From: Bacillus sp. FJAT-29790
GTDB lineage: Bacteria; Bacillota; Bacilli; Bacillales; Cytobacillaceae
Direction of reading: 5' to 3'
Assembly (NCBI RefSeq): GCF_019039215.1
Contig: NZ_JAHNZZ010000001.1
Span: 957,658-1,021,657, forward strand
DNA length: 64,000 nucleotides
Shown: positions 7,680 to 30,357 of the stretch, piece after piece
How the letters are laid out: each line of letters begins with the position of its first letter
Numbering within the stretch: the first letter of the stretch is position 1
Translations under genes and position numbers: made by a program
Notes under the pieces: model-generated
Database searches by the model: none
Seen by the model: the letters and a program-made list of their open reading frames with translations, nothing else
Told to the model about the DNA's origin: nothing

Positions 7680-8477
7680 TTAAGATTTAGTTAAAGCTGT
7701 AAACCTGCACTTCGGATAATTACTGCAGCCTTTAAATGTTCCATGTTTACCTTTTCTATCTACCAGTAAGTTTCCGCACCTAGGACATTCATTATTCTTT
7801 GCTTTTTGTCTCTTTCCCTTGAGTTGATCTTTGACTTGGGAAACGTGCTGCTTTGCCCTTTGTTTCTGTTCTTTCCTATCAGTCACTTCTAAGGTGGCTA
7901 GCTTTCTCTGTATCTGGATGATTTTAAAAGGATTTATATCATTTTCCTCTTTGTAGTTTTGTATGGTAGAGATAAGGTGCTTTCTATTGATTACAGATGC
8001 TTTATTAAAAGAATCTGTAAACTTTAGAGTAGCCTCATTACTAAATACAATTATGGACTGAAGCGAAATTTGTTCAGTAAGTTCTTCTCCTAAAAAATGC
8101 TTCAAGGCCTTGATATGCCCGTAGTTTTGCCAAATCGGATTATACAATCTTTCCTGCCGTTTATAAATGACTTGTTTCCAATACTGACTGTTTTCTTTTC
8201 CAATAATCCAACCGGTATAGTTTTTCGTTTCGATGACAAAGATTCCTTTAGGGGAAAGAACAAGATGATCAATTTGTGAAGTTTTCCCATTCTCAGTAGG
8301 AATATATAGATCATTTAATATGGTATATGTAGCTGGATCTAAAGCACTAAGCGTTTTAATAACCTGTTTTTCTCCCGCGAGTCCTTTCAAACTGGCAAAG
8401 TTCAACCTAAACCACACTAATAGACTAACCATTAACAATACTAAAAATATTGAAAGCAAAGTTTTCCCTTCTTTCAT
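7680..8477 (-). CDS. membrane-anchored NERD-domain protein with C-terminal topoisomerase-type zinc finger
   Basis: A 265-residue protein. Residues ~7-24 form one N-terminal hydrophobic anchor. Residues ~35-150 are a NERD (nuclease-related) domain with DHLVLSPKGIFVIETKNYTG, carrying the D...ExK residues of the PD-(D/E)XK fold. The C-terminus (~230-265) is a topoisomerase-I-type zinc ribbon, CPRCGNLLVDRKGK...FKGCSNYPKCRF. A basic linker (~190-225) separates them. This architecture is frequent in Bacillus; nuclease activity is inferred from the fold. The ribosome site is weak. Monocistronic. Confidence 0.85.
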   Translation of the reverse strand: MKEGKTLLSIFLVLLMVSLLVWFRLNFASLKGLAGEKQVIKTLSALDPATYTILNDLYIPTENGKTSQIDHLVLSPKGIFVIETKNYTGWIIGKENSQYWKQVIYKRQERLYNPIWQNYGHIKALKHFLGEELTEQISLQSIIVFSNEATLKFTDSFNKASVINRKHLISTIQNYKEENDINPFKIIQIQRKLATLEVTDRKEQKQRAKQHVSQVKDQLKGKRQKAKNNECPRCGNLLVDRKGKHGTFKGCSNYPKCRFTALTKS

Positions 8478-10915: not shown

Positions 10916-11073
10916 TTTATTTCGATTTACAATAATTTAAATTTAAAATATTTAGTTATTGGATTTTGTTTACAATTATCAAATATTAGATTATGTTATA
11001 AGTGTGATAGATTTACTAGTAGTATTTGGGTACTATGTATTATTTTGTTACATTATTAATGGAGGTGTCAAGC

Positions 11074-11844
11074 ATGTATGCTGGCTTTAATTTGAATATA
11101 AATGATGAGTTAGTTCATTATAAATCAATTGGAAATACGATATACAATACTCAAAAGCAAACAGTTAAAGATGGGATAAGTAAATTTATCCTTGATGATG
11201 GTACTATAAACGGAACTGACATGCAAAACAGCTGGTTTCCACAAATTCAGGCGGATATTTTTATTTCTCACTCTCATAACGATAAAGAAAAAGCAATTGC
11301 ACTGGCTGGCTGGTTAAAACATACGTTTGACTTAGATGTCTTTATTGATTCTTCGGTATGGGGAAGTGCGGATGAACTTTTAAAAAAAATAGATGATCAA
11401 TATTGTAAAAATAATGATAGTTCAACATATAGCTATGAAAAACGAAACTTTTCTACAAGTCATGTTCACACTATGTTATCTACAGCGTTGATGATGATGA
11501 TTGATCAAACAGAGTGCCTGCTTTTTTTAAACACCCCAGAATCTATTAATACTTCTTCTGTAGTTAATAATACAAAATCTCCGTGGATTTATTATGAAAT
11601 TGGCGTTTCAAAGTTTGTTAGAAAGCGTGAACCGAATAGACCAAAGGGCATGATTAAAAAAGGAATATTTGAAAATGCTCAAGACCTTACTATCCAGTAT
11701 AAATTAGATATAGACCATCTATACGATTTAAACCAAGCTAACCTTCTTGATTGGCAGAGACTATTCGCACAACATAAGGGAAACCATCCGTTAGATTTAC
11801 TGTATGGTATGAAAAGGCTACTGCTAGAATATTCAGTGTCTTAA
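11074..11844 (+). CDS. TIR-domain protein, first ThsB-like component of a type II Thoeris-like locus
   Basis: A 256-residue protein. The start at 11074 is preferred to 11026 because GGAGGTGTCAAGC precedes it. Residues ~60-200 form a TIR domain: ADIFISHSHNDKEKA opens strand A, and SPWIYYEIGVSK near residue 175 carries the expected catalytic glutamate (E175) of TIR NADases. In Thoeris systems TIR proteins sense infection and make an ADP-ribose-derived signal from NAD+. The next genes encode a TM-macro protein and an MTH538/DUF1863-type TIR, as expected for type II Thoeris with two TIR sensors. A hairpin at 11851 lies between this gene and the effector. Phage defence is inferred from family and context. 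Confidence 0.8.
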   Translation: MYAGFNLNINDELVHYKSIGNTIYNTQKQTVKDGISKFILDDGTINGTDMQNSWFPQIQADIFISHSHNDKEKAIALAGWLKHTFDLDVFIDSSVWGSADELLKKIDDQYCKNNDSSTYSYEKRNFSTSHVHTMLSTALMMMIDQTECLLFLNTPESINTSSVVNNTKSPWIYYEIGVSKFVRKREPNRPKGMIKKGIFENAQDLTIQYKLDIDHLYDLNQANLLDWQRLFAQHKGNHPLDLLYGMKRLLLEYSVS

Positions 11845-11850
11845 TGTGAA

Positions 11851-11868
11851 GGGTTCTTTCTAGAACCC
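11851..11868 (+). promoter_or_regulatory. hairpin between TIR gene and TM-macro gene
   Basis: GGGTTCT pairs with AGAACCC around a 4-base loop, followed by CTTTGG, not a T-run. It could trim read-through so that the toxic effector is made at a lower level than the sensor, or stabilise the mRNA 3' end. Confidence 0.5.
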
Positions 11869-11902
11869 CTTTGGTGATATTGGGAGTATAGGAGATTAAA
11901 AG

Positions 11903-12757
11903 ATGAGATTTTATAAGAAGGTAAAGGTCCGCTTTTTTGACAGGACTTTATTAAAAGATTGGTTAGCAGTTCTATCGCCAATAAGTGTTATCATAACATG
12001 TATTTCAATAGCGATAAGTATTCCTGATAACTACAAATCATGGGTTTTTATCTCAATCCTCGTTCTTTTCGCCTTGATTTACGTAATCCTATGGGTTAGA
12101 GCAAATTTATTAACTGAAACGAAACTAAACATAAATAATTCTACCGTAACGATTAAAGTGGGAGACATTTTTGAGGAGTCTGGATTAAAAGTAATAGCTT
12201 TTAATGAATACTTTGATACACAAGTTGATAATCAAATTATCTCTGATAAAACTTTAAATGGCATCTATCTAAGACGTAAGGTAAAAGATATACAGGCTTT
12301 GGATCGATTAATAGAACAAGATGAACGTTTAAATTCAGATGGAATTAAAATAGACAGTAATAAAACTAGAAGACGAGGAAAGAAGGATAGATATAAGTTA
12401 GGTACTATTTTTCAACATGAGGAATACTTACTAACCGCTTTTTCAAAGTTTGATAATGAAAATAGAGCTAACTTGCATATGAATGATTATATAAACCTTT
12501 TATTAAACTTTTGGAATGAAATAGATATTGTTTATAATGGTAGATCCATTGTTATCCCGCTATTAGGGTCAGGATTAACAAGGTTTAAAAATTATGAAAT
12601 GATTACAGATCAAGAGCTTTTAGAATTGTTAATTTGGTCTTTCAAAGTAAGCAAAATAAAATTCACTTATCCGTCTACAGTATCCATTATCATTCATGAA
12701 TCTAAAAAGGATAAGATTAATTTCTATAAATTAAAGGAGCAAGCAAATGGCTTATAG
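11903..12757 (+). CDS. thsA: TM-macro effector, ThsA of type II Thoeris-like system
   Basis: A 284-residue protein with two N-terminal membrane helices (~20-41 and ~47-66), then a ~210-residue cytosolic domain. That domain carries VKVGDIFEESGLKVIAFNEY (strand and loop of a macro-type ADP-ribose pocket) and VIPLLGSGLTRF, a macro-like glycine loop. This two-TM plus macro layout is that of the type II Thoeris effector (DUF6430-like). There, binding of a TIR-made ADPR conjugate is believed to trigger membrane damage and abortive infection. Its ATG follows GGAGATTAAAAG, and its 3' end overlaps the next gene by 11 bases, so the two are translationally coupled. Assignment rests on architecture, since I could not run a profile search. 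Confidence 0.78.
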   Translation: MRFYKKVKVRFFDRTLLKDWLAVLSPISVIITCISIAISIPDNYKSWVFISILVLFALIYVILWVRANLLTETKLNINNSTVTIKVGDIFEESGLKVIAFNEYFDTQVDNQIISDKTLNGIYLRRKVKDIQALDRLIEQDERLNSDGIKIDSNKTRRRGKKDRYKLGTIFQHEEYLLTAFSKFDNENRANLHMNDYINLLLNFWNEIDIVYNGRSIVIPLLGSGLTRFKNYEMITDQELLELLIWSFKVSKIKFTYPSTVSIIIHESKKDKINFYKLKEQANGL

Positions 12758-13307
12758 AAATGGAACTTATGTTGCATTTGACGGAAATGGAACAACAAAT
12801 CCAACTAAAGGTGATATGAAATATTTCGGACTTTTACGAAGTTGGAATACTTCTAGTAAAACGGATTTCACTTTCAGTGATAGTCACAAAAAGACATTCC
12901 AAGTTAAGGATACTAGTTTAAAAAGAACGTTGCAGGCAAGACTTTTAGAACGAATGAGAAATTCTAAAAACATGTTATTAATAATATCAGAAGACACAAA
13001 CTGGGATCGTGGAATGTTGAATTTTGAGATTGAAAAAGCTATTGATTTTTATAAAATTCCAATCATTGTTGCGTATACAGGGTATGAATACATTTTGAAT
13101 CCTCAAGCTCTATCTCAAAAGTGGCCAAAAGCACTTCATGAAAGAATAATAAATCGAACAGCAAAAAGCATTCATATTCCTTTTAAACAAAAATGCATTG
13201 CATCTGCTATTTCTCAGTTCAGTGTAAATAATAAAGTGGATCAATTAACTTCACCACTTGATTATTATAGTGAGGAAGCCTATAAGCAATGGGGTTATAT
13301 TTATTGA
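12747..13307 (+). CDS. thsB: MTH538/DUF1863 TIR-like protein, ThsB
   Basis: A 186-residue protein opening MAYRNGTYVAFDGNGTTNPT, typical of ThsB-type TIR-like (Thoeris) sensors that begin with an xYVAFD strand. It continues with KRTLQARLLERMRNSKNMLL and IISEDTNWDRGMLNFEIEKA, the TIR core with the conserved W-x-x-G...E near residues 92-101. ThsB proteins recognise phage components and synthesise the second messenger. The ribosome site AAAGGAGCAAGCAA lies inside the upstream gene. A second TIR protein at 11074 gives the locus two sensors for one effector. Confidence 0.82.
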   Translation: MAYRNGTYVAFDGNGTTNPTKGDMKYFGLLRSWNTSSKTDFTFSDSHKKTFQVKDTSLKRTLQARLLERMRNSKNMLLIISEDTNWDRGMLNFEIEKAIDFYKIPIIVAYTGYEYILNPQALSQKWPKALHERIINRTAKSIHIPFKQKCIASAISQFSVNNKVDQLTSPLDYYSEEAYKQWGYIY

Positions 13308-13585: not shown

Positions 13586-14257
13586 TTGCAAATACCATAC
13601 CTTGTTGAAATGGACTATAAAGAGTTAATAAAAGAAATAATTGAAAAAAGCTACAATATACTTTTAGCACAGATTTCCAAAGGAAGAATTATCATTGATA
13701 ATGAAGCATCGTTTCAACTACAGTTTTCTTATATTTTAAAAGTCATAGGTGAATTGCATCAATTTTCTCCTGATGATTTATTTTCCATAAGATTAGAAAC
13801 TCCTTTCTTATCGGAAGTTGAGCTGGCTAAGAGTAAGTCAAAAAGGGCAAAAATCGATATAACTGTAACAATGGAGAATCGTTTACAAAAAGAGACCAAA
13901 GTATCTTGTACGATAGAGTTAAAATACTTTCAATGGGCAAATCATCGAGAACCCAATAATCGCTACGACGCTTTTAATGATCTTCTAAATCTAGAGGAAT
14001 ATGTTTACTCCAATCAATATAATTTTGGGGTTTTTATTATAGGTACCGATCACTTACATTATGTAAATCAAGATAACTACTCTGAGAATACTAGGGACTT
14101 TGATATGAGAGATGGCAAGACCTATAAGGCTGGTTCGTTACTAGAATATAAAACTATGAACCCCTATGGTCCCGCAATACAATTAAAGAATGACTATGTA
14201 TTTAGTTGGGAAAACATAAATCAAAAATACTTTTTAAAGCTACTAATTGAACAGTGA
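13586..14257 (+). CDS. PD-(D/E)XK nuclease-like hypothetical protein
   Basis: A 223-residue protein from a TTG preceded by AAAGGAG. The middle (~90-120) reads KRAKIDITVTMEN...KVSCTIELKYFQWAN: an Asp on one strand and an E-x-K on the next, the signature of a PD-(D/E)XK nuclease core. The N-terminal ~80 residues are helical. The rest has no family I recognise. It lies between the Thoeris-like locus and another nuclease-like gene 66 bases downstream on the same strand, which suggests one transcript. DNA cleavage is inferred from the motif only. Confidence 0.65.
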   Translation: MQIPYLVEMDYKELIKEIIEKSYNILLAQISKGRIIIDNEASFQLQFSYILKVIGELHQFSPDDLFSIRLETPFLSEVELAKSKSKRAKIDITVTMENRLQKETKVSCTIELKYFQWANHREPNNRYDAFNDLLNLEEYVYSNQYNFGVFIIGTDHLHYVNQDNYSENTRDFDMRDGKTYKAGSLLEYKTMNPYGPAIQLKNDYVFSWENINQKYFLKLLIEQ

Positions 14258-14323
14258 ACATCAAAAATTTTAGGAACAAAAATTCGTTGAATAAATTATC
14301 TGCTTTATGTTAGGGGAATTCAA

Positions 14324-15106
14324 ATGATAGCTGATATACGAGGGAAAATCAGTCGTTTAGGTTCAAATTTAACGGAACGGTTAGAGGATAATTTGACTGG
14401 AAATGTGTTTGGTGTATTAAGATACATGCCCTTTTCTCCAATAATGGGTGAAATACTTGTTAATGCGGTGTATCCAAAATCTATTGGTGAAGATATTCGA
14501 GATATCCAATATGGATTTTGGGCTGACAAGGTGCAATTTTGGCCCTATGATCGTGAAGGGGAAATAGATGCACTGATTGAATTTGAAAATATGATTATAG
14601 GGATTGAAGTGAAATATACAAGTGGACTATCCTCTGATGATGATATTTCAAATAACGAAGATGTCGAATTCAAGAATAAAGAAGAGATGAAGAAAAGTAT
14701 CAATCAAATTGCTAGAGAATCTCGCATTATTTCACAAAAAGGGAACAACAAAAAGAAGGTTCTTCTTTTTGTTGCTGATCGCGAATCTTGCAAAGAAGTT
14801 TATACGGATATTCTAAAACGAAACATTATAGAGAGTGAAGTAGCATTTGGGTACATCTCTTGGCAAGACTTTTTACTTCAGTTAAAAAAGTTAAAGGTAA
14901 CAGATCCATATCACCAAGTTATTATTAATGATGTAATTGCACTGCTTACGCGAAAAGGGTTTGAAGACTTTACTAATATGAATATTGAGGTTCCACAGCC
15001 AATCAATGTTGAACAGTATTTCCAATTTAATATAAAGAGTAAATTAAAAATTAGTTTTCAAACAGATATATCAATTAAGGGGGGATTATATTATGAGTTC
15101 AGCTGA
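14324..15106 (+). CDS. PD-(D/E)XK nuclease-like protein
   Basis: A 260-residue protein. The catalytic core is visible near residues 80-100: EGEIDALIEF, then IIGIEVKYTSGLSSDDD, i.e. E...D...E-x-K with the usual two strands. Acidic and lysine-rich linker ~105-125; the following segment KKVLLFVADRESCKEVYTDI looks like an alpha/beta half of the same fold. The ATG follows TAGGGGAA. Its last 14 bases overlap the next gene, so the two are co-translated and probably interact. I do not recognise a named family. A restriction-like or toxin role is inference from the fold and island context. Confidence 0.68.
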   Translation: MIADIRGKISRLGSNLTERLEDNLTGNVFGVLRYMPFSPIMGEILVNAVYPKSIGEDIRDIQYGFWADKVQFWPYDREGEIDALIEFENMIIGIEVKYTSGLSSDDDISNNEDVEFKNKEEMKKSINQIARESRIISQKGNNKKKVLLFVADRESCKEVYTDILKRNIIESEVAFGYISWQDFLLQLKKLKVTDPYHQVIINDVIALLTRKGFEDFTNMNIEVPQPINVEQYFQFNIKSKLKISFQTDISIKGGLYYEFS

Positions 15107-15683
15107 AAATATACGCAATGCTTTCCATGTCGTTTATAAATCATATGAAAATATTCAAAAGTTAATAGATTACTGTAAAACAATCGGTCTGGAAAAGAGT
15201 AATTACATTAGTATGGTGGATAAATTTTTACGTTATAAATCAGATAATAATCTATCAGGATGGTTTATTCACAATTTTATAATGTTATTTCAAGATAAAA
15301 ATGATGCTGAGTTAGACAATGGCTGGCGAAATGGACCAATTTATGTAATGGAGATTGAACTGTATAATCCGGAATCCGAATTTGAAAATATAGTAGATCT
15401 TCCTTGTATTCGTCTTTCAAAATTTGAATATGATAATTTAGAAAAATGGGAGTCAGGTTGCTCTCCATCTAATCATTGGAGATTTTATTATCCACTTCGC
15501 AGAAATGACATTATGAATATTCAAGAAAATGGGGACTATTTACACATCACTACCAGAGATCAGGAAGCGAGTAATCGTCATTATTGGGGTGTGAAGAAAA
15601 TAACTAGTAAACGTATTCCACTTATTGAGATCACCGCAGATAATGTTGTAGAAAAGGTATTTGGAACGTTTGATAATTTATAA
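15093..15683 (+). CDS. hypothetical partner of the upstream nuclease
   Basis: A 196-residue protein starting MSSAENIRNAFHVVYKSYEN at an ATG after AAGGGGGG. The overlap of 14 bases with the nuclease-like gene argues for a functional pair. Sequence features: an N-terminal helical part; a central region with GWFIHNFIMLFQDKND; a C-terminal stretch SNRHYWGVKKITSKRIPLIE. I see no catalytic signature. It could be an immunity, specificity or target-binding subunit, which is speculation. Confidence 0.6.
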   Translation: MSSAENIRNAFHVVYKSYENIQKLIDYCKTIGLEKSNYISMVDKFLRYKSDNNLSGWFIHNFIMLFQDKNDAELDNGWRNGPIYVMEIELYNPESEFENIVDLPCIRLSKFEYDNLEKWESGCSPSNHWRFYYPLRRNDIMNIQENGDYLHITTRDQEASNRHYWGVKKITSKRIPLIEITADNVVEKVFGTFDNL

Positions 15684-15870
15684 AATTTGGATAGAATTAT
15701 CGGTGCTGCTAAAATGGAGTTCAATCATAAGAAGTTACGATTTGGGGAATTGAAGATTAAATTTTAAAAATATATTATCATTGTCAATTTACCTGAGACC
15801 GAGACGTTATTGTAAATGGCAAAAGAAACAATTGATGGATTAAAAAGAGGAAGACTAATTCGGAGGATAT

Positions 15871-16845
15871 ATGGATAAAAATCGGTATGTTTTTAACTAT
15901 TATAGTCAAAAGGAAAATAATATTACGAAGGCGTTTCTAAATGTTTTAGAACATTCCGTACCGAAATTGACAGAAAAGTTTATAAGAACCTTACTGCATT
16001 TTGATACTAACACGTTTGAATTTAAATATAAATACCAAGTAGTAAGTGGTGAATATAACCTTCATAATAAAGAAGCGAAAAATTTCATTATAGGAATATC
16101 AGATACTGAAGAAATTAAAACTATAGAAGAAAATGCCTTATCTAGTGTCCCCGATGGAGGTATTTTTCCAAAAGGAAAAGGCGATTTTAACATAATAATC
16201 GAATCTAAAGTAGGGAAAAATTCTTTTTTAACTGAAGGACAGTTGCAGAGACATATAAATTTAGTAAGACACTCAGAAGACATAAATCTAGAATTTTTAC
16301 TTTGGGATCATATAAGAGAATTTTTTAAAATGTTTAAAGAGACTACTACCGATAGATTAACCATATTTTTAATAGACCATTTTGAAAATCTTTGTATTAC
16401 TAATGATATAGGTACTAATACTGTTGATAACGATTATTGGTTTTATCAATTTGGTGACTTAGAATATATTGCTAGACAACTAGATCATACTATTATGAAT
16501 GAAATAAATTATAAAGTATATTATCAGAATACTAGAAACAATGGCATAGGTTATCACCAACATTATAATCGTAGTAAAGAGGGATTTGCAAAACTTCATG
16601 TTGGTGGCGATGTCAAATGCCTAATATTAAGATATGGTAGTGGTAAAGATGATTTTGGTATTAAGCTACAGGAAAGAGTTTATAAAGCATACAATTTAAA
16701 AGACAGGAGAAACAAATCAAACAGTATTGCCCAACCAAATGAGTTATGGATGCATTTTGATTGGATTGCCCATAATCAAATTGAGTATAGAAAATTGATA
16801 GAACTAATTGAGCTGTCTTATGAGAGAAAATATAAGATAAAATAA
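15871..16845 (+). CDS. PD-(D/E)XK nuclease-superfamily protein
   Basis: A 324-residue protein starting MDKNRYVFNYYSQKENNITK after CGGAGG. The opening ENNITKAFLNVLEHS is typical of long nuclease-like proteins whose N-terminal ENxxTxALxxxL helix precedes a PD-(D/E)XK core. Here the core is PDGGIFPKGKGDFNIIIESK near residues 92-112 (D...ESK). The C-terminal half is helical with a conserved-looking LWMHFDWIAHNQIEY. It is 187 bases from the previous gene, so possibly its own transcript, same strand. No named family recognised; nuclease role inferred. Confidence 0.62.
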   Translation: MDKNRYVFNYYSQKENNITKAFLNVLEHSVPKLTEKFIRTLLHFDTNTFEFKYKYQVVSGEYNLHNKEAKNFIIGISDTEEIKTIEENALSSVPDGGIFPKGKGDFNIIIESKVGKNSFLTEGQLQRHINLVRHSEDINLEFLLWDHIREFFKMFKETTTDRLTIFLIDHFENLCITNDIGTNTVDNDYWFYQFGDLEYIARQLDHTIMNEINYKVYYQNTRNNGIGYHQHYNRSKEGFAKLHVGGDVKCLILRYGSGKDDFGIKLQERVYKAYNLKDRRNKSNSIAQPNELWMHFDWIAHNQIEYRKLIELIELSYERKYKIK

Positions 16846-17002
16846 TAACCCGGAATTAAACATGTTATTTGTTAGAGACAAACGCAATTTAAGTGATGGA
16901 AGTTATTTGTCATTAAGATGTTACAACATAAATCTTATGGGCTGTAAGTTATAATAACGCCCTAATTCGATTTCAAATTATTAGATAATGGAGGGGAATT
17001 TA

Positions 17003-17797
17003 TTGGCTTGGGAACCCGATTGGAATGAAGAAAATATTGGATATCCGAAACCAGAAGAATTTGAAAATATGACTCAAGAAGAATTTGAAGAACATTGCGA
17101 ATTACTGGACCTTGCCCCTACGCAATATGAATATGCTCGTCTAGACGCTTTGTCTAATAATTTTAACTACATAAGTACAGTTTTAGAGAAGATAGATATG
17201 GAAGGTTGGCCAACAGTTGCGGTAGACAGGGATTTAGAGTTAGGTTGGTTAGAATGGGGTAAACCATTAAAGATGCAGAGGAAAGATTATGAAACTCTAT
17301 ATAAAAGCTGTACTCATTGGTCAAACATGTGTGAAAGTCCAATTGAGTGTATGCTATACGATGAAGTAAAGAAAATTGACCTAAATCCGGAAATTAATTT
17401 AACTCTAGGGGATTTGCTTTTTAAATGCAAAAGAGATATTGCAGGAAGGTTTACTGAAGGTGCAGGGGAGCGTTATGATCAGATTTACATGATTATGGAT
17501 GGAAACCACCTAGTTCCTATTCTAATTGTAGAGTGTGATGGGGAAGCAAATCACACGAAAGTGGAAGATATAAAGAAGGATGCAATGAAAGAACATAACC
17601 TTTGCAGTCACTTTCCACACGTGCCTGTTCTTCGATTCACGGGTACAGAAATTAAAAGTTCTGGAAAAAAGTGTGCCTCTTTAATTAAGAGTACTTTTGA
17701 ATTTCTTTGTTCAATATATCCACAATTAAAAGCCAATCCTGACATGGTTAAACAAATTAGGGATAATGCAGTACAAAGATTGGTTAAAATAATATAA
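17003..17797 (+). CDS. DUF559/Vsr-like nuclease-fold protein
   Basis: A 264-residue protein. The TTG at 17003 is the likely start: GGAGGGG lies 6 bases before it, and the alternative ATG at 16988 overlaps that site. The N-terminal ~100 residues are very acidic (repeated EEFE). From ~112 the sequence has CESPIECMLYDEVKKI, then YDQIYMIMDGNHLVPILIVE, ECDGEANHT and VPVLRFTGTEI. This is the order of DUF559/very-short-patch-repair-type endonuclease folds (ESxxE...D...E-x-D/H...RFTxxEI). It closes the run of nuclease-like genes. Catalysis is inferred. Confidence 0.68.
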   Translation: MAWEPDWNEENIGYPKPEEFENMTQEEFEEHCELLDLAPTQYEYARLDALSNNFNYISTVLEKIDMEGWPTVAVDRDLELGWLEWGKPLKMQRKDYETLYKSCTHWSNMCESPIECMLYDEVKKIDLNPEINLTLGDLLFKCKRDIAGRFTEGAGERYDQIYMIMDGNHLVPILIVECDGEANHTKVEDIKKDAMKEHNLCSHFPHVPVLRFTGTEIKSSGKKCASLIKSTFEFLCSIYPQLKANPDMVKQIRDNAVQRLVKII

Positions 17798-19176: not shown

Positions 19177-20406
19177 TTGTCGGAAATTAGAATTGAAAGT
19201 TTTCCAGCCCAAGAAGGTGACTGCTTTTTGGTGAGTATAGGAAAGGAAAAAAATAAAACCCATATACTAATTGATGGAGGATATTCCGAGACTTACCATG
19301 ATTATCTTAAATCAAGGCTCGAAGAACTGAATAAAGTTGGGGAATATTTAAATTTAGTGGTTGTTACTCATATAGATTCAGACCATATAGAAGGGATAAT
19401 TGAATTATTAACTGAAAATAAATCAGCCGAAAGTCCCCAAGTTATTAGAATAGATGAAATTTGGCACAACAGTTATAGACATCTCAATTTTGAAAAGAAT
19501 CAGACTGTATTAAACCCAGATGAAAAATCAATACTTTTTGATATGATAAATAGAGGTAAAATAAGCCATCGAGATAATAAGGCTGACCAGCAAAATCAAA
19601 GTAAGGAAATAAGTGCAAGAGATGGTTCTACTCTAGCAGGATTAATATATCATGGAAAATATAATTGGAATAGTTCGATGGGTTCTTCAGCAATCAAATG
19701 TAATACACCCGATATTATAAGTTTAACTCCTGACATAAAAGTTCGAATTCTCTCGCCAAGTTTGGAGAGTTTAAATAAGTTAAAAAAGATGTGGGTTAAG
19801 GAACTAAAGAAAGACAAATACGATTTTAAGTTAAATGATGATGGACTATTTGATGATGCTTATGAATTTTTTTTATTGAATAAAGATATTTATGAAGATA
19901 TTGAAGAGGATAAAGACGTCTCACACAAAAATCAGAACCTCAAATTAGAGTCTCTTTTAAAGATAAAAACAAAAAAAGACACATCAGTGGCCAATGGGTC
20001 CTCAATTTCTTTTATAGTCGAATATAAAAATAAAAAGTTACTATTCCTAGCAGATTCCCACCCTCAAGATATATATAAGGAAATCGAGAGGTTAAAAAAA
20101 GAGTGTAAATATAATACTTACTTTGATTTTATTAAGGTTTCCCATCACGGGAGTAATAGAAACACTAGTCCTGAATTACTTACTCTGATTGATTCACCTA
20201 TTTATTTTTTTTCAACAAATGGCCAGAAACACAATCATCCTCATCCTGAAACAATTGCCAGGATTATTTCCAGAAGTGGACAGAAAAGGTGCCTAATGTT
20301 CAACTACCCTTTGGAGAGTGAGCTATTTATTGATGATTTAAAGAAAGAATATTCTTTTGAGGTTGATTTTGGTAATGGCGAAACATTTAAAGCAATAGAC
20401 TTATAG
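19177..20406 (+). CDS. metallo-beta-lactamase-fold hydrolase, first effector of a Lamassu/ABC-3C-like operon
   Basis: A 409-residue protein from a TTG behind AGGGAAG. It opens RIESFPAQEGDCFLVSIG, as ComEC/Rec2-type MBL proteins do. ILIDGGY (D33), THIDSDHIEG (H65, D67, D69, H70) and VSHHGSNRN (H323/H324) supply the two-metal site, and the C-terminal HNHPHPETI is the family end motif. A charged insert (~130-270) separates the motifs. It is followed after 14 bases by a protease gene, then by middle-component and SMC genes. This matches the hydrolase-plus-protease effector pair of Lamassu (ABC-three-component) defence systems. The substrate (nucleotide, nucleic acid or lipid) is unknown. Confidence 0.82.
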   Translation: MSEIRIESFPAQEGDCFLVSIGKEKNKTHILIDGGYSETYHDYLKSRLEELNKVGEYLNLVVVTHIDSDHIEGIIELLTENKSAESPQVIRIDEIWHNSYRHLNFEKNQTVLNPDEKSILFDMINRGKISHRDNKADQQNQSKEISARDGSTLAGLIYHGKYNWNSSMGSSAIKCNTPDIISLTPDIKVRILSPSLESLNKLKKMWVKELKKDKYDFKLNDDGLFDDAYEFFLLNKDIYEDIEEDKDVSHKNQNLKLESLLKIKTKKDTSVANGSSISFIVEYKNKKLLFLADSHPQDIYKEIERLKKECKYNTYFDFIKVSHHGSNRNTSPELLTLIDSPIYFFSTNGQKHNHPHPETIARIISRSGQKRCLMFNYPLESELFIDDLKKEYSFEVDFGNGETFKAIDL

Positions 20407-20420
20407 AGGTGTAACAAATA

Positions 20421-21509
20421 ATGGCTAATTTTGTAAGGTTAGAAAAGGCAGTATGTAAATTAACATGTGGGGAAATAAAAGATTGTGAAAAAGCAACCGC
20501 TTTTCTTATCTCGCCTAATAAGGCAATAACAGCAAGACATGCTATTGAAGATTACTACGATGAAAATAAACAAATTTTTCTTGAATTTTGTAACATTACT
20601 AGTAAACCCATTTTCCGAAAAGCGAAGCCTCTTGATATACCTCCAAATATAAATAGTCCTATTGTTATTCTGGAGCTTGACGAATGCGTAGAAACCGATG
20701 TTTATTTATCCTTTTGTGACTACGAGATAGAAAAAGATGATAGATATGAAACATTTGGCTATCCGGTTGTTAAATGGCAAATGGGTCAATGGATAAACAG
20801 TGAAGTTTCTAGACGGGTTACCCAACAAATGGCAAGACCATTTGATTGGGATATAGATCTAAACCATTCATCAAATATAAAAGATTTTGGAGGTTTATCC
20901 GGAGCCCCTTTATTTATAAAAAAACAGTTAGTAGGAGTTTTACTTACAGAATCTAAAGCTGGGGGAAAGGCTATATCTTTAGGTTGTATTAGTATTGAAA
21001 GGCTAAAAGACGTTTTACAACATTTCGATATTCCAATTAAGGAGTTTAGTCATGACTTCATAATGGATGAAATATATGAGTTGGACGATGATAGTAACTT
21101 TTCTGAGTCAATTTTTATAGCTAAGTTGGAATCGGCTCAAATCTTTGATCACGAAGATTATCAACAAGAATTTTTCAATGCTGAGATTGCAAAGACTTCA
21201 ATAGAAAGTAGAAACATATCTACTGAAGTAAAAAGTTTTTCTATGTTGCAGAATAATATTAAAAGTATTTGGCGAACTCAACATCTATCCTATAATGATG
21301 ATTTTGATGGAAGAGAATTGTTAACGAAAGTCTATACAAGAGTTGAAGACTTAAATGAAGGTACACTTAAAAGTACTCCCGAATTACCCCTTTTGGTAAA
21401 AAAAGGGATCCTCCATCAACTTTCGGATGAATGTAAAGTTGGATGGACTAAAAACTATAAAGATAGGTTGAAAAGCTATCTAGAAGAGAGGGAGCGTATA
21501 GATGGGTGA
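20421..21509 (+). CDS. trypsin-like serine protease with C-terminal adaptor, second effector
   Basis: A 362-residue protein. Residues 1-205 are a chymotrypsin/trypsin-like fold: ATAFLISPNKAITARHAIED places the catalytic His at 40, and FGGLSGAPLF places the Ser at 160. The usual D-I-A-L-L strand is replaced by NSPIVILEL (78-86), so the canonical Asp is not obvious. Residues ~225-360 are helical and end in KVGWTKNYKDRLKSYLEERE, like the C-terminal domain that ties effectors of ABC-three-component systems to their ATPase. It lacks a signal peptide, so it acts in the cytosol. Its stop overlaps the next gene by 8 bases. I infer that the ATPase complex unleashes proteolysis on infection. Confidence 0.8.
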   Translation: MANFVRLEKAVCKLTCGEIKDCEKATAFLISPNKAITARHAIEDYYDENKQIFLEFCNITSKPIFRKAKPLDIPPNINSPIVILELDECVETDVYLSFCDYEIEKDDRYETFGYPVVKWQMGQWINSEVSRRVTQQMARPFDWDIDLNHSSNIKDFGGLSGAPLFIKKQLVGVLLTESKAGGKAISLGCISIERLKDVLQHFDIPIKEFSHDFIMDEIYELDDDSNFSESIFIAKLESAQIFDHEDYQQEFFNAEIAKTSIESRNISTEVKSFSMLQNNIKSIWRTQHLSYNDDFDGRELLTKVYTRVEDLNEGTLKSTPELPLLVKKGILHQLSDECKVGWTKNYKDRLKSYLEERERIDG

Positions 21510-21984
21510 GTTGAATTTAGTTAATAGGGATTTAATATTAAATTCAACTAGAATATTAATATTAATTTCAAAATTTGAAACAAAAAAAACATTTAAATTA
21601 AATTTATATAAAATTATGCTTTACGATTTTTATATGAAATTCCCTCAAACAATGCTATCTAAAGAAGTAAGAAATAATAACTCAAAAGATTTTAATGAGT
21701 TTTATTCCTATTTTCATTGGCAGCCAGATAGAGATGAATATAATTTATATCTTCGTTATTTAATTGGTAAAAAGTTAATTGATAAAATTATCATTGGTAC
21801 TGACTTATGTTACCGAATTAATGAAAAAGGTATTAATGTATTAAAAAGGTTAGAAAGTAGTTATTCTTATGAATTAAAGAGTATTGCAGATTATATAAAG
21901 AAAGAAATTTCAAAATTAAGTGATTCAATAATAGAAAGTCAGATTGTTAATGAATCGTTAAAAAGTAATAAGGATGATTACTGA
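21502..21984 (+). CDS. ABC-three-component middle component (LmuC-like)
   Basis: A 160-residue helical protein with a winged-helix-like middle: STRILILISKF, KIMLYDFYMKFPQTMLS, IGTDLCYRINEKGINVLKRL. It overlaps the protease gene by 8 bases and the ATPase gene by 1 base (TGATG coupling). Middle components of ABC-three-component/Lamassu systems are small proteins in exactly this place that bridge the effector and the SMC-like ATPase; their sequences vary strongly. The assignment rests mainly on position and on the RILILL...LLDF pattern. Confidence 0.72.
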   Translation: MGELNLVNRDLILNSTRILILISKFETKKTFKLNLYKIMLYDFYMKFPQTMLSKEVRNNNSKDFNEFYSYFHWQPDRDEYNLYLRYLIGKKLIDKIIIGTDLCYRINEKGINVLKRLESSYSYELKSIADYIKKEISKLSDSIIESQIVNESLKSNKDDY

Positions 21985-23930
21985 TGAGTAAAAGAATATT
22001 TTTGGAAAAACTTATACTAATAGGATTTAGGAAAAACTATGAAATAGAATTTAAAAGGGGTTTAAATTTTATTTCTGGGCCTATGTCAACTGGGAAATCA
22101 TCAATTGCTGAAATGATTAATTATGCTTTTGGAAGTGAGAAACATAATGCCTATATTGAGATAAGGAACAGCTGTAAGGAAGTAGAGTTACAATTTGTTA
22201 TTGGGGATCGTAAATTTAAAATAGTTAGGCCATTATTTGATTTTAATAGACCTGTTAAATTATTTAGATGGATAGAAGAAAAAAGTTCTTTCAGTGAAGA
22301 TTTTGAGCTTTTGCCAATAGATAGCCCAGCAAATGAAGCTTCACTATCAGCTTTCTTGTTAAATGAAATTGGTCTTGCTGATATTACAGTTGCAAATCAA
22401 ACTTTCAGTTATAGAGACTTGTTCAAGTATTGTTATGTAAGACAATCAACTATAGACTCTGAAAATTTATTGAAGGAAAAGGACTGGGGTTCAAGCATAA
22501 AGAGACGCCCTACATTTGAAATAATATTTAATATTTATAATGATTTGTTAGGTAATCTTAGACAAAAGTTAAAAGAAAAGGGTCAGTATATTAATATTCT
22601 AGTTAAAAAAAGAGATGGTGTTTATGAATTTTTAAAAGAGATAAAAATATCGGATGTAGATGAAATCTTAAAGGAAAAGGAAAGGCTTAACCAACTTCTA
22701 GGTGAAAAGAATAAAAAATTAGTTGAGATAAAAGCTTCAGGAAAGTACGATGATGAACTTACTTTAAGTTTAGAAGAAGGAATAGCAAAACTTAAGGAAA
22801 AAATTATCAACTATGAATTGGAAATACAAGATAAAATTAAATATATAGAAAAACTAATATTACTTAGAAATCAATACTCGAGTGAAGTTCAAAAAATTGA
22901 ATTTATCTTAGAAGGTGCTCTGGTACTGAATAAAATTGACTTTGAGATTTGCCCTTCGTGTCTTAATGCAATCGAAGAAAAAAAAGGTTGCAACTTATGT
23001 GGTAGTGAACTAAGGGATCTTTCGGAATCAGAGATTAGGATATATAAAAGTGAACTTTTTAGAATAAAGAGAAAATTTAATGCTTTAACTAGTTTTATTG
23101 AATCACAGGAATTCTCCTTAAGTGATCTAAAAAAGATTAGAAGGGAAAAGAATGAAGAATTACATAGAAAGCAAAGAGAACTCGACAGATTAAGGAATAA
23201 CTATATTAGTCCATTTATTGAACAAATTGAACAAATAAATTTTGAAATCGGTAATATTTACAAAAGCTTGGAACAATTAGAGAATGATTTAAAAGTAAAA
23301 AGTCATTTTTCTAAACTAAACGAAAAAATATTAGAGGAAGAGAATTTATTCGATGGATTAAAAAAGGAAATTGAAAACTTACAACTTGAAACTATCACTA
23401 AAGACGAAGTTATCAAAGATCTGTCTGTTTTATTAAGTAACATTCTAAAGGAGTTCAATTTTCCAAAATTAAGTGAAGCCTATATTAAAGATTCTAACTA
23501 TTTACCTTATGTTCGTGGTGTGAAGTATGATGAGTTAGGTAGTGGTGGAGCAATTACAATGACAACAATGGCTTACTTTCTTTCTATTGCCTTATTAAAG
23601 ACAAATAGCAAAAATCATCCTGGATTTTTAATTATTGACTCCCCAAGAAAGAATCTTGGTGCAGATGCTAAGAATAATGATGAATTTAAAGATGAGGAAA
23701 TATTTAATTCAATAATTAAGTATTTTATTTCAATAACAAATAATTCTACTAATAGTGGTGGTAAAGATAAAGAAGAAGACGTAGTAGAAATAATTAATGA
23801 TTTGCAGTTGATCGTTATAAACAATGGTTATCCAGATTTCTTAAATCAAAACGACCTCATTAAAATATTTGATGGAAAAGGAACAAAGGATCTTCCTTAT
23901 GGATTAATAGATGATATTGAAAATCCATAA
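21984..23930 (+). CDS. SMC-like ABC ATPase (LmuB-like)
   Basis: A 648-residue protein. Walker A SGPMSTGKSS spans residues 31-40. A long coiled coil (~180-320 and ~340-470) is broken by a zinc hook with two CxxC pairs at 323/326 and 336/339 (CPSCLNA...CNLCG). The ABC signature region is YDELGSGGAITMTTMA near 515-525, and Walker B is GFLIIDSPRKN with D552. It is a Rad50/SMC-type DNA-sensing ATPase whose hook is of the zinc kind, as in Rad50. In Lamassu systems the homologue dimerises on foreign or aberrant DNA ends and activates the effector. It is the last gene of the operon, with a terminator at 23981. Confidence 0.87.
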   Translation: MSKRIFLEKLILIGFRKNYEIEFKRGLNFISGPMSTGKSSIAEMINYAFGSEKHNAYIEIRNSCKEVELQFVIGDRKFKIVRPLFDFNRPVKLFRWIEEKSSFSEDFELLPIDSPANEASLSAFLLNEIGLADITVANQTFSYRDLFKYCYVRQSTIDSENLLKEKDWGSSIKRRPTFEIIFNIYNDLLGNLRQKLKEKGQYINILVKKRDGVYEFLKEIKISDVDEILKEKERLNQLLGEKNKKLVEIKASGKYDDELTLSLEEGIAKLKEKIINYELEIQDKIKYIEKLILLRNQYSSEVQKIEFILEGALVLNKIDFEICPSCLNAIEEKKGCNLCGSELRDLSESEIRIYKSELFRIKRKFNALTSFIESQEFSLSDLKKIRREKNEELHRKQRELDRLRNNYISPFIEQIEQINFEIGNIYKSLEQLENDLKVKSHFSKLNEKILEEENLFDGLKKEIENLQLETITKDEVIKDLSVLLSNILKEFNFPKLSEAYIKDSNYLPYVRGVKYDELGSGGAITMTTMAYFLSIALLKTNSKNHPGFLIIDSPRKNLGADAKNNDEFKDEEIFNSIIKYFISITNNSTNSGGKDKEEDVVEIINDLQLIVINNGYPDFLNQNDLIKIFDGKGTKDLPYGLIDDIENP

Positions 23931-26384: not shown

Positions 26385-27389
26385 ATGAGTCATAAACTGC
26401 AGGTTGGGGAAATGAAGGCTGCATATTTAACAGATAAAGAAATATGGGGGCATTTTAATTTTATTTTTTCTGCTAAATCACGAAATTCAACGACATACAA
26501 ATTCGTTCTGATTAAATCGTTGATTGAGAACCTCTATAATGTGAATGAAAAGCTTGAATTGAATTACGATATTCTGTTCAATAGCTTTTCTCAGATATAT
26601 TGGAATCTAGTTGTTCATCATGATCTCCATCAGATTAATATGGTCGGTAAGAAAGCAGAAGTTCAGAGAATTCTTTTGGATGCGCAATCAAAGTATCAAA
26701 TTCCGGATACATTTGTGTTTGATAAACTTTCAGATGAATTGCAAATATTTTTAGTCAATAAGGTAAAAAGGAAATGTAAGCTTAATGTGATGGGAGCCAT
26801 TTACGGTGATACAGCTGGCACCATATATGATTTTGATAATGAACGGGAATATATTCGCTTTAATTCTGCTTTTTACTCTTTTATGCAGCGGTTTCAGCGT
26901 GTGCTAAGGTATATGTCAAATTATCATTTAGCCTTATTTTTGGAAAAGTTCAATGAACAGGGAGATACTACAAAGCTTTTATTGAAAGTTGAGAATGTAT
27001 CGAAGCGTTCTTCTTTAGATCCATTTTATCAGGTCTTGTCATCTTTTTATGATGGAACATGCTTTTATTGTAAAAAAAGTATTAAAAAGAAGGACCAGGC
27101 ACATGTCGATCATTTTATTCCATGGAGTTTTGTTCAAGCAGATCAGCTCTGGAATTTAGTCATTGCGTGTTCTACTTGCAATCTTTCAAAAAACGACAAA
27201 CTAGCGATGGATTTCTTTTTAGAAGCGTTAATGGATCGCAATAGTAGTTTCCTAGCATCACCTTCACTGAAAAATAGAGAGGACATGAAGGTTTACACTA
27301 GTAAAAAGTTACAGGACCTTTATGAATATTCAATAGACAATGGTTATACAGATATATGGAAACCTAGGAAAAAAATCTGCCACCCTTAA
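26385..27389 (+). CDS. HNH endonuclease-domain protein
   Basis: A 334-residue protein. The C-terminal third is an HNH nuclease with structural zinc: CFYCKKSIKK (Cys 226/229), then HVDHFIPWSF, then NLVIACSTCNLSKNDK (second CxxC and the catalytic N/H region). The N-terminal ~210 residues are helical and not assigned; they start MSHKLQVGEMKAAYLTDKEI. McrA-like and phage-defence HNH proteins have similar layouts. It is coupled to a MazG-like gene and ends at a terminator (27464). DNA or RNA target unknown. Confidence 0.8.
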   Translation: MSHKLQVGEMKAAYLTDKEIWGHFNFIFSAKSRNSTTYKFVLIKSLIENLYNVNEKLELNYDILFNSFSQIYWNLVVHHDLHQINMVGKKAEVQRILLDAQSKYQIPDTFVFDKLSDELQIFLVNKVKRKCKLNVMGAIYGDTAGTIYDFDNEREYIRFNSAFYSFMQRFQRVLRYMSNYHLALFLEKFNEQGDTTKLLLKVENVSKRSSLDPFYQVLSSFYDGTCFYCKKSIKKKDQAHVDHFIPWSFVQADQLWNLVIACSTCNLSKNDKLAMDFFLEALMDRNSSFLASPSLKNREDMKVYTSKKLQDLYEYSIDNGYTDIWKPRKKICHP

Positions 27390-28465: not shown

Positions 28466-28956
28466 TTAATTGCACCACCCTTTCACACTTCATATAGTGA
28501 TGAAGGGCTGAAAAGGACAGTATGAAAAGCCGATATTGGTTACAGAATTGTGACACGCAAAACAGAATGGAAATTCAAAGGAATATACTTCTTAAATGAG
28601 CTCATTCAACCAGTGAATAATCTAAAATCATACCAATAAGTCGAATTAAAGACGATTGATAATTTCATGGCCTATTTAGTTATGGAAATATAGTGAAAAT
28701 TAGGTGAATATAGTAAAATAGTAAAATAGTAAAATAGTAAAATAGTAAAATCCCTTAGGAACTACTGAGGTACACTATGAAGCAATGGACCGCTGTTAAC
28801 ATCCTAAAACAAGAGATTCCAAAAGACGTTTTTTCCGTACTTTGAAGCACAGTCATAAAAAAAATTGAATATTTCAGCAAATACTTCGATTCCATATTGA
28901 CTCACAGCTAATTCTAGGTAACGATAGTAATAAATCTTTATTTTCTGGAGGATATG
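28466..28956. other. intergenic region upstream of thrC with an 8-bp repeat
   Basis: No gene. 28710-28751 holds five perfect copies of AGTAAAAT. A single core CAATGGACCGCT near 28784 resembles the 52-bp repeat unit found at 57-330. The right end carries the TGGAGG ribosome site of thrC. Confidence 0.5.
28710..28751. repeat. AGTAAAAT x5 microsatellite
   Basis: Eight-base unit repeated five times head to tail with no interruption. Copy number of such repeats can vary between strains. Confidence 0.9.
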
Positions 28957-30357
28957 ATGAAATATATTAGTACACGCGGGAATGTAAGTAAAATTGGTTT
29001 TATTGAAACAGTCTTAATGGGACTGGCAACAGATGGAGGTCTTTTAGTTCCGGAAAAAATCCCGCAAGTTACTGCGGAAAAGCTGCAGGCAATGGCACAG
29101 ATGACTTATCAGGAATTGGCATACGAAATCATTTCCTATTATGTTGATGGGGAAATTCCGGAAAATGAACTTAAGGAATTAATCGGGAAAAGCTATGGAA
29201 CCTTCCGCCACCCTGAGGTAACGCCTGTTCAAAAGGTAAAGGATAACCTTTATGTATTAGAACTGTTCCATGGTCCTACTTTTGCTTTTAAAGATGTGGC
29301 TCTACAGTTTTTAGGGAATTTGTATTCCTATATCGCAAAGAAGACAGGTGTCACGATCAATATTGTTGGGGCTACTTCAGGGGATACAGGGGCATCCGCC
29401 ATTGAGGGCGTAAGAGGAAAAGAAGGGATCCGAATTTGTATTTTGCACCCTCATGGGAAAGTAAGTAAGGTACAAGAGCTGCAAATGACGACAGTTCATG
29501 ACGAAAGCGTTTTGAATTTAGCGATAAAAGGAACATTTGATGATGGCCAGAGAATTATTAAGGAATTATTCGCTGATTTGGAATTCAAAGAGAAATATCA
29601 TTTGCGTGCGATTAACTCGATTAACTTTGCCCGGATTTTAGCTCAAACTGTTTATTATTTCTATGCGTATTTCCAGGTGGCAAAAGACAAAGACATTAAG
29701 AGCCTGAACTTTAGTGTGCCGACTGGAAATTTTGGGGACATCTTTGCCGGTTATTTGGCGAAGAGAATGGGTCTTCCTGTCGGGAAGCTCATTGTCGCAA
29801 CAAATGAAAATAATATTTTAGAACATTTTATCAAGGATGGCGTGTACCAGCTTGGTGAGTTCTGCAGCACATATAGTCCGTCCATGGATATTCAAGTAGC
29901 CAGTAACTTCGAGCGATATCTGTACTACTTGCTTGATGAAAATCCAAGCGCAGTATCTGTTTTAATGGATCAATTCAAGTCAGAAGGAAAAATGGTTGTG
30001 AATGCTGAGCTGCTTCGACAGGTAAAAGCAGATTTTTCGGCACACGGGGTGCAGGGAGAAGAATGCCTGCAAACCATCAGCAAATATTATGCTGAAACCA
30101 ATTATTTACTTGATCCGCATACTTCCTGCGGAGTCGCTGCATCTGAAGCATGTAATGACCCAAATGAGGTATGTGTCACACTTGCAACCGCACATCCGGT
30201 AAAATTCAATGAATCCATTGCACTTTGTCATATTGAGCAGCCATTCCCAGAACAGATTCGTCAATTGTTTGAAAAGCCACAATATCTGGAAGTCATCGAG
30301 GCCGAAAATAATGAAATCGTTCGTAAATTAGAGAAGCATTTTAGTTCTTCCGTTTAA
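28957..30357 (+). CDS. thrC: threonine synthase (long form)
   Basis: A 466-residue PLP enzyme converting O-phospho-homoserine to threonine. It belongs to the longer class typical of E. coli and yeast, starting MKYISTRGNVSKIGFIETVL with the N-terminal domain LATDGGLLVPEKIP. The PLP lysine is in GPTFAFKDVALQFLGN (~residue 105) and the phosphate-binding region in GATSGDTGASAIEG. The second ATG is used because GGAGG is 5 bases before it. B. subtilis has a shorter thrC in hom-thrC-thrB; here the gene is alone, so it may be a second threonine synthase. A terminator follows. Confidence 0.93.
   Translation: MKYISTRGNVSKIGFIETVLMGLATDGGLLVPEKIPQVTAEKLQAMAQMTYQELAYEIISYYVDGEIPENELKELIGKSYGTFRHPEVTPVQKVKDNLYVLELFHGPTFAFKDVALQFLGNLYSYIAKKTGVTINIVGATSGDTGASAIEGVRGKEGIRICILHPHGKVSKVQELQMTTVHDESVLNLAIKGTFDDGQRIIKELFADLEFKEKYHLRAINSINFARILAQTVYYFYAYFQVAKDKDIKSLNFSVPTGNFGDIFAGYLAKRMGLPVGKLIVATNENNILEHFIKDGVYQLGEFCSTYSPSMDIQVASNFERYLYYLLDENPSAVSVLMDQFKSEGKMVVNAELLRQVKADFSAHGVQGEECLQTISKYYAETNYLLDPHTSCGVAASEACNDPNEVCVTLATAHPVKFNESIALCHIEQPFPEQIRQLFEKPQYLEVIEAENNEIVRKLEKHFSSSV

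Follow-up and report, generated by a model that had tools for sequence, protein, structure and literature searches.

A nuclease gene and its overlapping partner in a Bacillus defence island: a probable weapon against viruses with its own safety catch

The gene pair treated here has its closest described counterparts among candidate and proposed systems. In PADLOC-DB 2.0.0, the candidate PDC-M15 consists of PDC-M15A and PDC-M15B, and PDC systems are described in an excerpt of PMC12988326 as mostly unvalidated candidates. Type III secretion (T3S)/YbjN-type chaperone domains and effectors with a restriction-endonuclease fold co-occur in proposed conflict systems, according to parts of PMC9503650. 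McrC, in turn, is defined by a DUF2357-nuclease arrangement that is typical of modification-dependent McrBC (PMC11090510, excerpt). Here, we compare with these systems the genes g2 and g3 of Bacillus sp. FJAT-29790, which are the second and third of five open reading frames (ORFs; g1 to g5) in a 64,000-nucleotide stretch of contig NZ_JAHNZZ010000001.1 (positions 957,658 to 1,021,657; hereafter the window). All five lie on the + strand at 13586-17797 between two defence loci, as an earlier note on this DNA had described; these are a Thoeris and a Lamassu/ABC-3C locus. The pair probably serves as a weapon against viruses and carries its own safety catch.

The GTDB-220 species collection was scanned with the g3 alignment and gave at least 33 loci (80 pattern matches), all of them in Bacilli and Clostridia; counts out of 33 refer to the loci listed. 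The earlier note had proposed to examine whether g2 and g3 are conserved as neighbours, and they are: g2 lies directly upstream of g3 in 30 of the 33 loci. The other three are degraded, with both genes broken (L065), with the start of g3 missing and no g2 (L074), or with the last 29 residues of g2 remaining ahead of an open g3 (L076). Within 193 genomes of the family, g2 and g3 were each found in 12, and nine genomes carried both next to each other. The remaining genomes held a remnant of g2 next to a stop-containing g3 (G127), a g3 fragment (G146) or a truncated g3 (G164) on the g3 side, and a truncated g2 without g3 (G063), a distant pair (G053) or a distant single gene (G115) on the g2 side. 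Only one of the 36 genomes of the genus contained the pair.

As a guard against selection bias of the g3 scan, a search anchored on g2 was made in 239 genomes of the order. The g2 profile matched in 16 of these, and each of the seven intact close g2 genes was adjoined by g3; five of these pairs were already among the 33 loci, while the window and G822 were new. Of the remaining matches, three were broken g2 genes without g3. Two were distant g2 relatives overlapped by a small partner gene, and four were distant single-gene cousins without partner. An intact close g2 without g3 was found neither here (0/7) nor among the full-length close copies of the 193 family genomes (0/8). Single-gene cousins of g2 (L043, L144-L147) have a common RSENSEDA motif and no small partner. 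Two related loci (L041, L141) have no g3 and a g2 whose C terminus is altered or truncated.

The overlap of the two genes, which the earlier note had read correctly in the window, is likewise a general feature. It amounts to 11-26 bases, depending on the start chosen, in 26 of the 28 loci with both genes as single ORFs, and in the other two an overlap is also possible with an earlier start. Among plasmids, both genes were present in one record, a mobilizable Niallia plasmid, where they are adjacent (60% and 61% identity) and show the same 14-base overlap as in the window with different flanks. The record titles give no plasmid label for the contigs of most of the 33 loci. A phage origin was considered and rejected, as neither viral contigs nor phage searches yielded a relative of g2 or g3. 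The hardest-to-place genes of the island are reduced to a small, portable two-gene unit that occurs across Bacilli and Clostridia and has no family in Pfam or NCBIfam. A scan for promoters and terminators stayed close to chance (33 against 25.9 expected and 2 against 2.0 expected, respectively), and in an empty-site comparison with the nearest genome from a permease search only the permease aligned.

A loose D...ExK pattern matches 16 of the 44 non-overlapping window ORFs of at least 150 amino acids, so the motif is weak evidence by itself and each gene needed independent evidence. For g2, it is borne out by the alignment in all 28 members: E21, E80, D82, E95, K97 and Q128 are invariant (28/28, and 7/7 across sub-types). 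The protein thus has the conserved acidic and ExK active-site residues of the PD-(D/E)XK superfamily together with a restriction-endonuclease-like fold. Family look-ups gave weak matches within the nuclease superfamily, besides PDC-M15A at 2.1e-9 (residues 10-125 of the window copy), and Pfam matches across the 28 members scatter over NERD (17), DUF4143 (14) and REase-ARP (1). REase-ARP (PF22558), which probably derives from PMC9503650, is the best Pfam match of the window copy with 24.2 bits against a cut-off of 27. It was dropped as the family of g2, being below the gathering cut-off and matching, at E up to 0.01, a single one of the 28. A sequence search returned no homologue of g2 among solved structures. 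In close relatives, residues ~45-75 and 180-225 of g2 vary most, and there is little change in g3 or in the first 45 alignment columns of g2 (L048 and L049 share 76% identity in g2 and 97% in g3); the variable residues may be target-contacting parts.

For g3, the best values in a scan of 32 members were E 0.0097 in Pfam and E 0.021 in PADLOC, each in a single member, and the window copy alone found nothing in NCBIfam or PHROGs. Its predicted model is confident and without a clear structural match. As a tentative lead, the model may resemble protein-binding chaperones (class I T3S/YbjN) rather than a known DNA-reading domain; at the level of sequence profiles, none of the 32 members matches the T3S/YbjN (TY)-chaperone Pfam families at E up to 1. 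A structural look-up among viral models gave nothing at E 0.001 or better, and a sequence comparison of g3 and g1 with solved structures gave chance-level rows only. A YbjN-like protein of Deinococcus is described as binding an SSB-like DNA repair protein (PMC3575483, excerpt). Fast evolution of g3 as a sign of an arms race was not borne out (mean identity 0.40 for g3 and 0.43 for g2; of 378 comparisons, 30% showed higher conservation of g3), and the correlated divergence of the two genes (r 0.92) was not used, since it is expected of linked genes.

The earlier note had been unable to match the genes to any named system, which needs a qualification for g2. All ten g2-type proteins compared match PDC-M15A at E 5e-4 or better (PADLOC gives no cut-off), making g2 a remote relative of this component, and PDC-M15B is with 211 positions similar in length to g3. 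However, PDC-M15B matches none of the 32 g3 members and none of three distant partners. It also matched nothing in the genome of the window, in 348 genomes of the phylum or in any control. Because no g3 matches PDC-M15B and no true PDC-M15 locus was available for comparison, the pair was not filed as PDC-M15. The family described here gives the PADLOC candidate a broader setting and a set of invariant residues. In the open-licence literature excluding bioRxiv, no paper naming PDC-M15, REase-ARP or PF22558 was found. The ADP-ribosyl-glycohydrolase (ARG)-centric conflict systems in the available parts of PMC9503650 resemble the pair in that a protein of restriction-endonuclease fold is accompanied by a chaperone of T3S/YbjN type, a fold that g3 may have, and in the best Pfam match of the window g2. 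They differ in the Pfam profile of the g2 family as a whole, where NERD prevails over REase-ARP, in the lack of TY-chaperone matches of g3, and in that no ARG gene was recognised beside the pair (no profile search for one was made). Unlike McrBC/DUF2357 type IV restriction, g2 has no DUF2357 region and most pairs have no McrB in their flanks. Lamassu and Thoeris share the island with g1 to g5, whereas none of the five has a sequence match to their components.

The g2 family comprises the window branch, a second branch at ~35% identity and a third formed by L042, L111 and L143. An alignment of the L042 and L111 g2-like genes was assigned to the family at a probability of 99.1% (E 8.6e-19), and the third-branch proteins keep E21-D22-x-L-T, F72-W73-P74, E80, D82, E95, K97 and Q128, as does L116. 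All four of these distant relatives retain an overlapping partner. The third-branch partners are too diverged to be detected by a single sequence, but a profile-profile comparison with g3 reached 86.4% (E 4.7e-6, 160 columns), compared with 6.8% before L143 was added to the two sequences. When the g3 profile was run over all distinct ORFs of the retrieved loci (1098), the third-branch partners took the top three places outside the family, with E values of 0.0015, 0.036 (L042) and 0.069 (L111) and 0, 3 and 2 of 500 shuffles as good, respectively. The L042 and L111 scores are weak alone, and the short partner in L116 is at chance (6/500 shuffles).

Both g2 and g3 are under purifying selection, with a ratio of nonsynonymous to synonymous substitution rates (dN/dS) of 0.02-0.19 in seven of eight comparisons; the eighth was saturated and dropped. 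Their decay is asymmetric. In three loci the nuclease is broken and g3 is open, by frameshift in L064 and L071 and by deletion in L076, as would be expected if g2 were harmful and g3 its antidote. Eight of the 33 loci (L051, L052, L063, L064, L068, L069, L073, L076) have a McrB-like AAA gene close to the pair and in the same orientation, confirmed as AAA_5 by Pfam in five of the eight. A DUF2357/PDDEXK_7 gene is Pfam-confirmed in L052, L068 and L073; BLAST grouping adds three further loci, and in L068 the gene is overlapped by g2 by 4 bases. The flanks of many other pair loci look metabolic.

Taken together, we tentatively prefer to see g2-g3 as a two-gene Bacillota module of a PD-(D/E)XK nuclease and a partner that restrains or directs it, with the nuclease freed on phage infection. 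The partner would be made alongside the nuclease from the overlapping gene, bind it through the T3S-chaperone/YbjN-like fold and keep it inactive or direct it. Infection, by a phage protein capturing g3 or by loss of g3, would free the nuclease, which would then cut DNA and halt the infection, possibly killing the cell. The earlier guess that g3 is a specificity or immunity subunit was fair in view of its nuclease partner. The overlapping genes, the invariant pairing and the decay pattern favour restraint or stabilisation of the nuclease by its partner, and the fold lead favours a protein-binding over a DNA-reading partner. The setting between Thoeris and Lamassu, the McrB-like neighbours, the distant relatives keeping an overlapping partner and the precedent of the conflict systems in PMC9503650 were counted in favour as well. 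Two caveats apply to this evidence: the three decay cases are few and two of them could be assembly errors, and the eight McrB-like loci are not independent, since five are from Paenibacillus and the McrBC-like genes of L063 and L076 look broken. If g3 does restrain the nuclease, a chaperone-like restraint would join the known safeguards on suicidal nucleases, such as protease gating, as in the adjacent Lamassu-type pair. It is conceivable, if doubtful, that g3 is safety catch and sensor at once, releasing a DNA-cutting g2 by binding phage proteins, and that McrBC-type systems repeatedly adopted the stand-alone pair as an extra effector arm.

The fixed pairing would also suit a two-subunit restriction-like nuclease in which cutting depends on g3 to recognise the target, be it modified DNA, a structure or a replication protein; host DNA would be spared for lack of that target. 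The same-strand McrB-like genes and the Pfam-confirmed DUF2357/PDDEXK_7 genes point the same way. An ordinary methylation-protected system is unlikely, since none of the six neighbour families common to at least three loci is methyltransferase-like by eye (no profile test was made). Nevertheless, the predicted g3 model may be closer to protein-binding chaperones than to a DNA-reading domain, and g3 outliving g2 in three loci is odd for a subunit serving cutting only; we consider this explanation rather unlikely. The asymmetric decay, the mobilizable Niallia plasmid and the patchy spread in the genus would instead fit a toxin-antitoxin-type stabilisation module without a direct antiviral role. 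This we regard as improbable: an order with the nuclease first and sizes of 260 and 196 amino acids are unusual for classical toxin-antitoxin pairs, most listed loci carry no plasmid label, and McrB-like neighbours recur. Even less credit is due to the idea that the pair belongs to McrBC-like type IV restriction as an accessory which can also persist by itself, as suggested by the eight McrB-like loci and the short overlap in L068; the examined flanks of the other 25 loci and the surroundings of the window pair show no such neighbour, and the concentration in Paenibacillus and the two broken McrBC-like gene sets count here too. Finally, one defence operon of all five genes, as their common strand, short gaps and position between defence loci might suggest, is hardly credible and largely refuted by the neighbourhood analysis, in which homologues do not keep the grouping and g5 has none. 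The coordinates of all features are summarized in Table 1.

Table 1. Genes of the 13586-17797 segment and the flanking defence loci (positions within the window).
Feature	Position	Strand	Description
g1	13586-14257	+	223 amino acids, TTG start, D...ExK nuclease-like, probably separate from g2-g3
g2	14324-15106	+	260 amino acids, PD-(D/E)XK nuclease of the pair
g3	15093-15683	+	196 amino acids, partner subunit, start inside g2; predicted chaperone-like (T3S chaperone/YbjN) fold
g2/g3 overlap	15093-15106	+	14 bases; the last part of g2 contains a strong g3 ribosome-binding site
g4	15871-16845	+	324 amino acids, separate PD-(D/E)XK-like gene, PDGG...IESK
g5	16988-17797	+	269 amino acids, orphan, DUF559-like motif by eye
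Thoeris	11026-13307		ThsA macro 2.3e-61; ThsB 1.8e-67; second ThsB-type TIR 1.8e-80
Lamassu/ABC-3C	19177-23930		LmuB 8.8e-178; MC2 7.1e-9

Four of the five genes had been credited with nuclease signatures, and the quoted motifs are all present. Besides g2, alignments bear them out for g4 (PD...ExK kept in 11/11 homologues) and g1 (D...ExK kept in 5/5), both small alignments read by eye; the conserved Asp of g4 sits in PDGG and not in the GDF quoted before. For g5, neither a Pfam DUF559 match at E up to 1 nor a homologue was found, so its nuclease label is a reading of the motif. The start of g5 is probably TTG 17003 rather than ATG 16988, since the latter abuts the ribosome-binding site. None of g1, g4 and g5 had a convincing match in Pfam, NCBIfam, PADLOC or PHROGs, and sequence searches found no homologue of g4 or g5 among solved structures. 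Homologues of g1 occur in three of the 193 family genomes and nine plasmid records, those of g4 in 14 family genomes and one plasmid, while g5 was seen in its own genome only among the 193 and not in plasmids, phages or viral contigs.

Outside the window, the g1 and g4 profiles matched nothing beside close g2-g3 pairs, and the suggestion of a five-gene unit is accordingly not supported; g1 is probably not part of the pair. The sole near case is L111, where a g4-like gene lies ~1.5 kb before the third-branch pair. In the near-identical G031 and G042 (L103, L104), 92 bases separate the homologues of g1 and g4, without a g2-g3 pair, in loci containing TnsC- and TniQ-like genes (by eye). An assay dividing the segment at 15683/15871, as the earlier note proposed, would therefore part g1 from g4. 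The window pair, situated between these two genes, may be embedded in a g1-g4 unit, which is found in one lineage outside the window. In L112, a g4-like gene is clustered with a McrB-like AAA similar by eye to those beside some pairs.

The Thoeris locus upstream of the five ORFs contains one ThsA and two ThsB-type TIR genes (11026, 12747). Downstream, the Lamassu/ABC-3C locus comprises an Avs1a-type MBL-fold gene, which passes the NCBIfam cut-off, a trypsin-like/CTD7 gene, MC2 and the SMC-like ATPase LmuB, and it resembles the nuclease-protease pairs described in an excerpt of PMC12799240. Further along, an HNH endonuclease gene with PtuB-like matches (26385-27389) and a threonine synthase gene with Thr_synth_N (28954-30357) were noted, the latter probably acquired, since it is absent from the other 35 genomes of the genus. 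At the island edge, 7680-8477 encodes a NERD-domain protein with a topoisomerase-type zinc ribbon.

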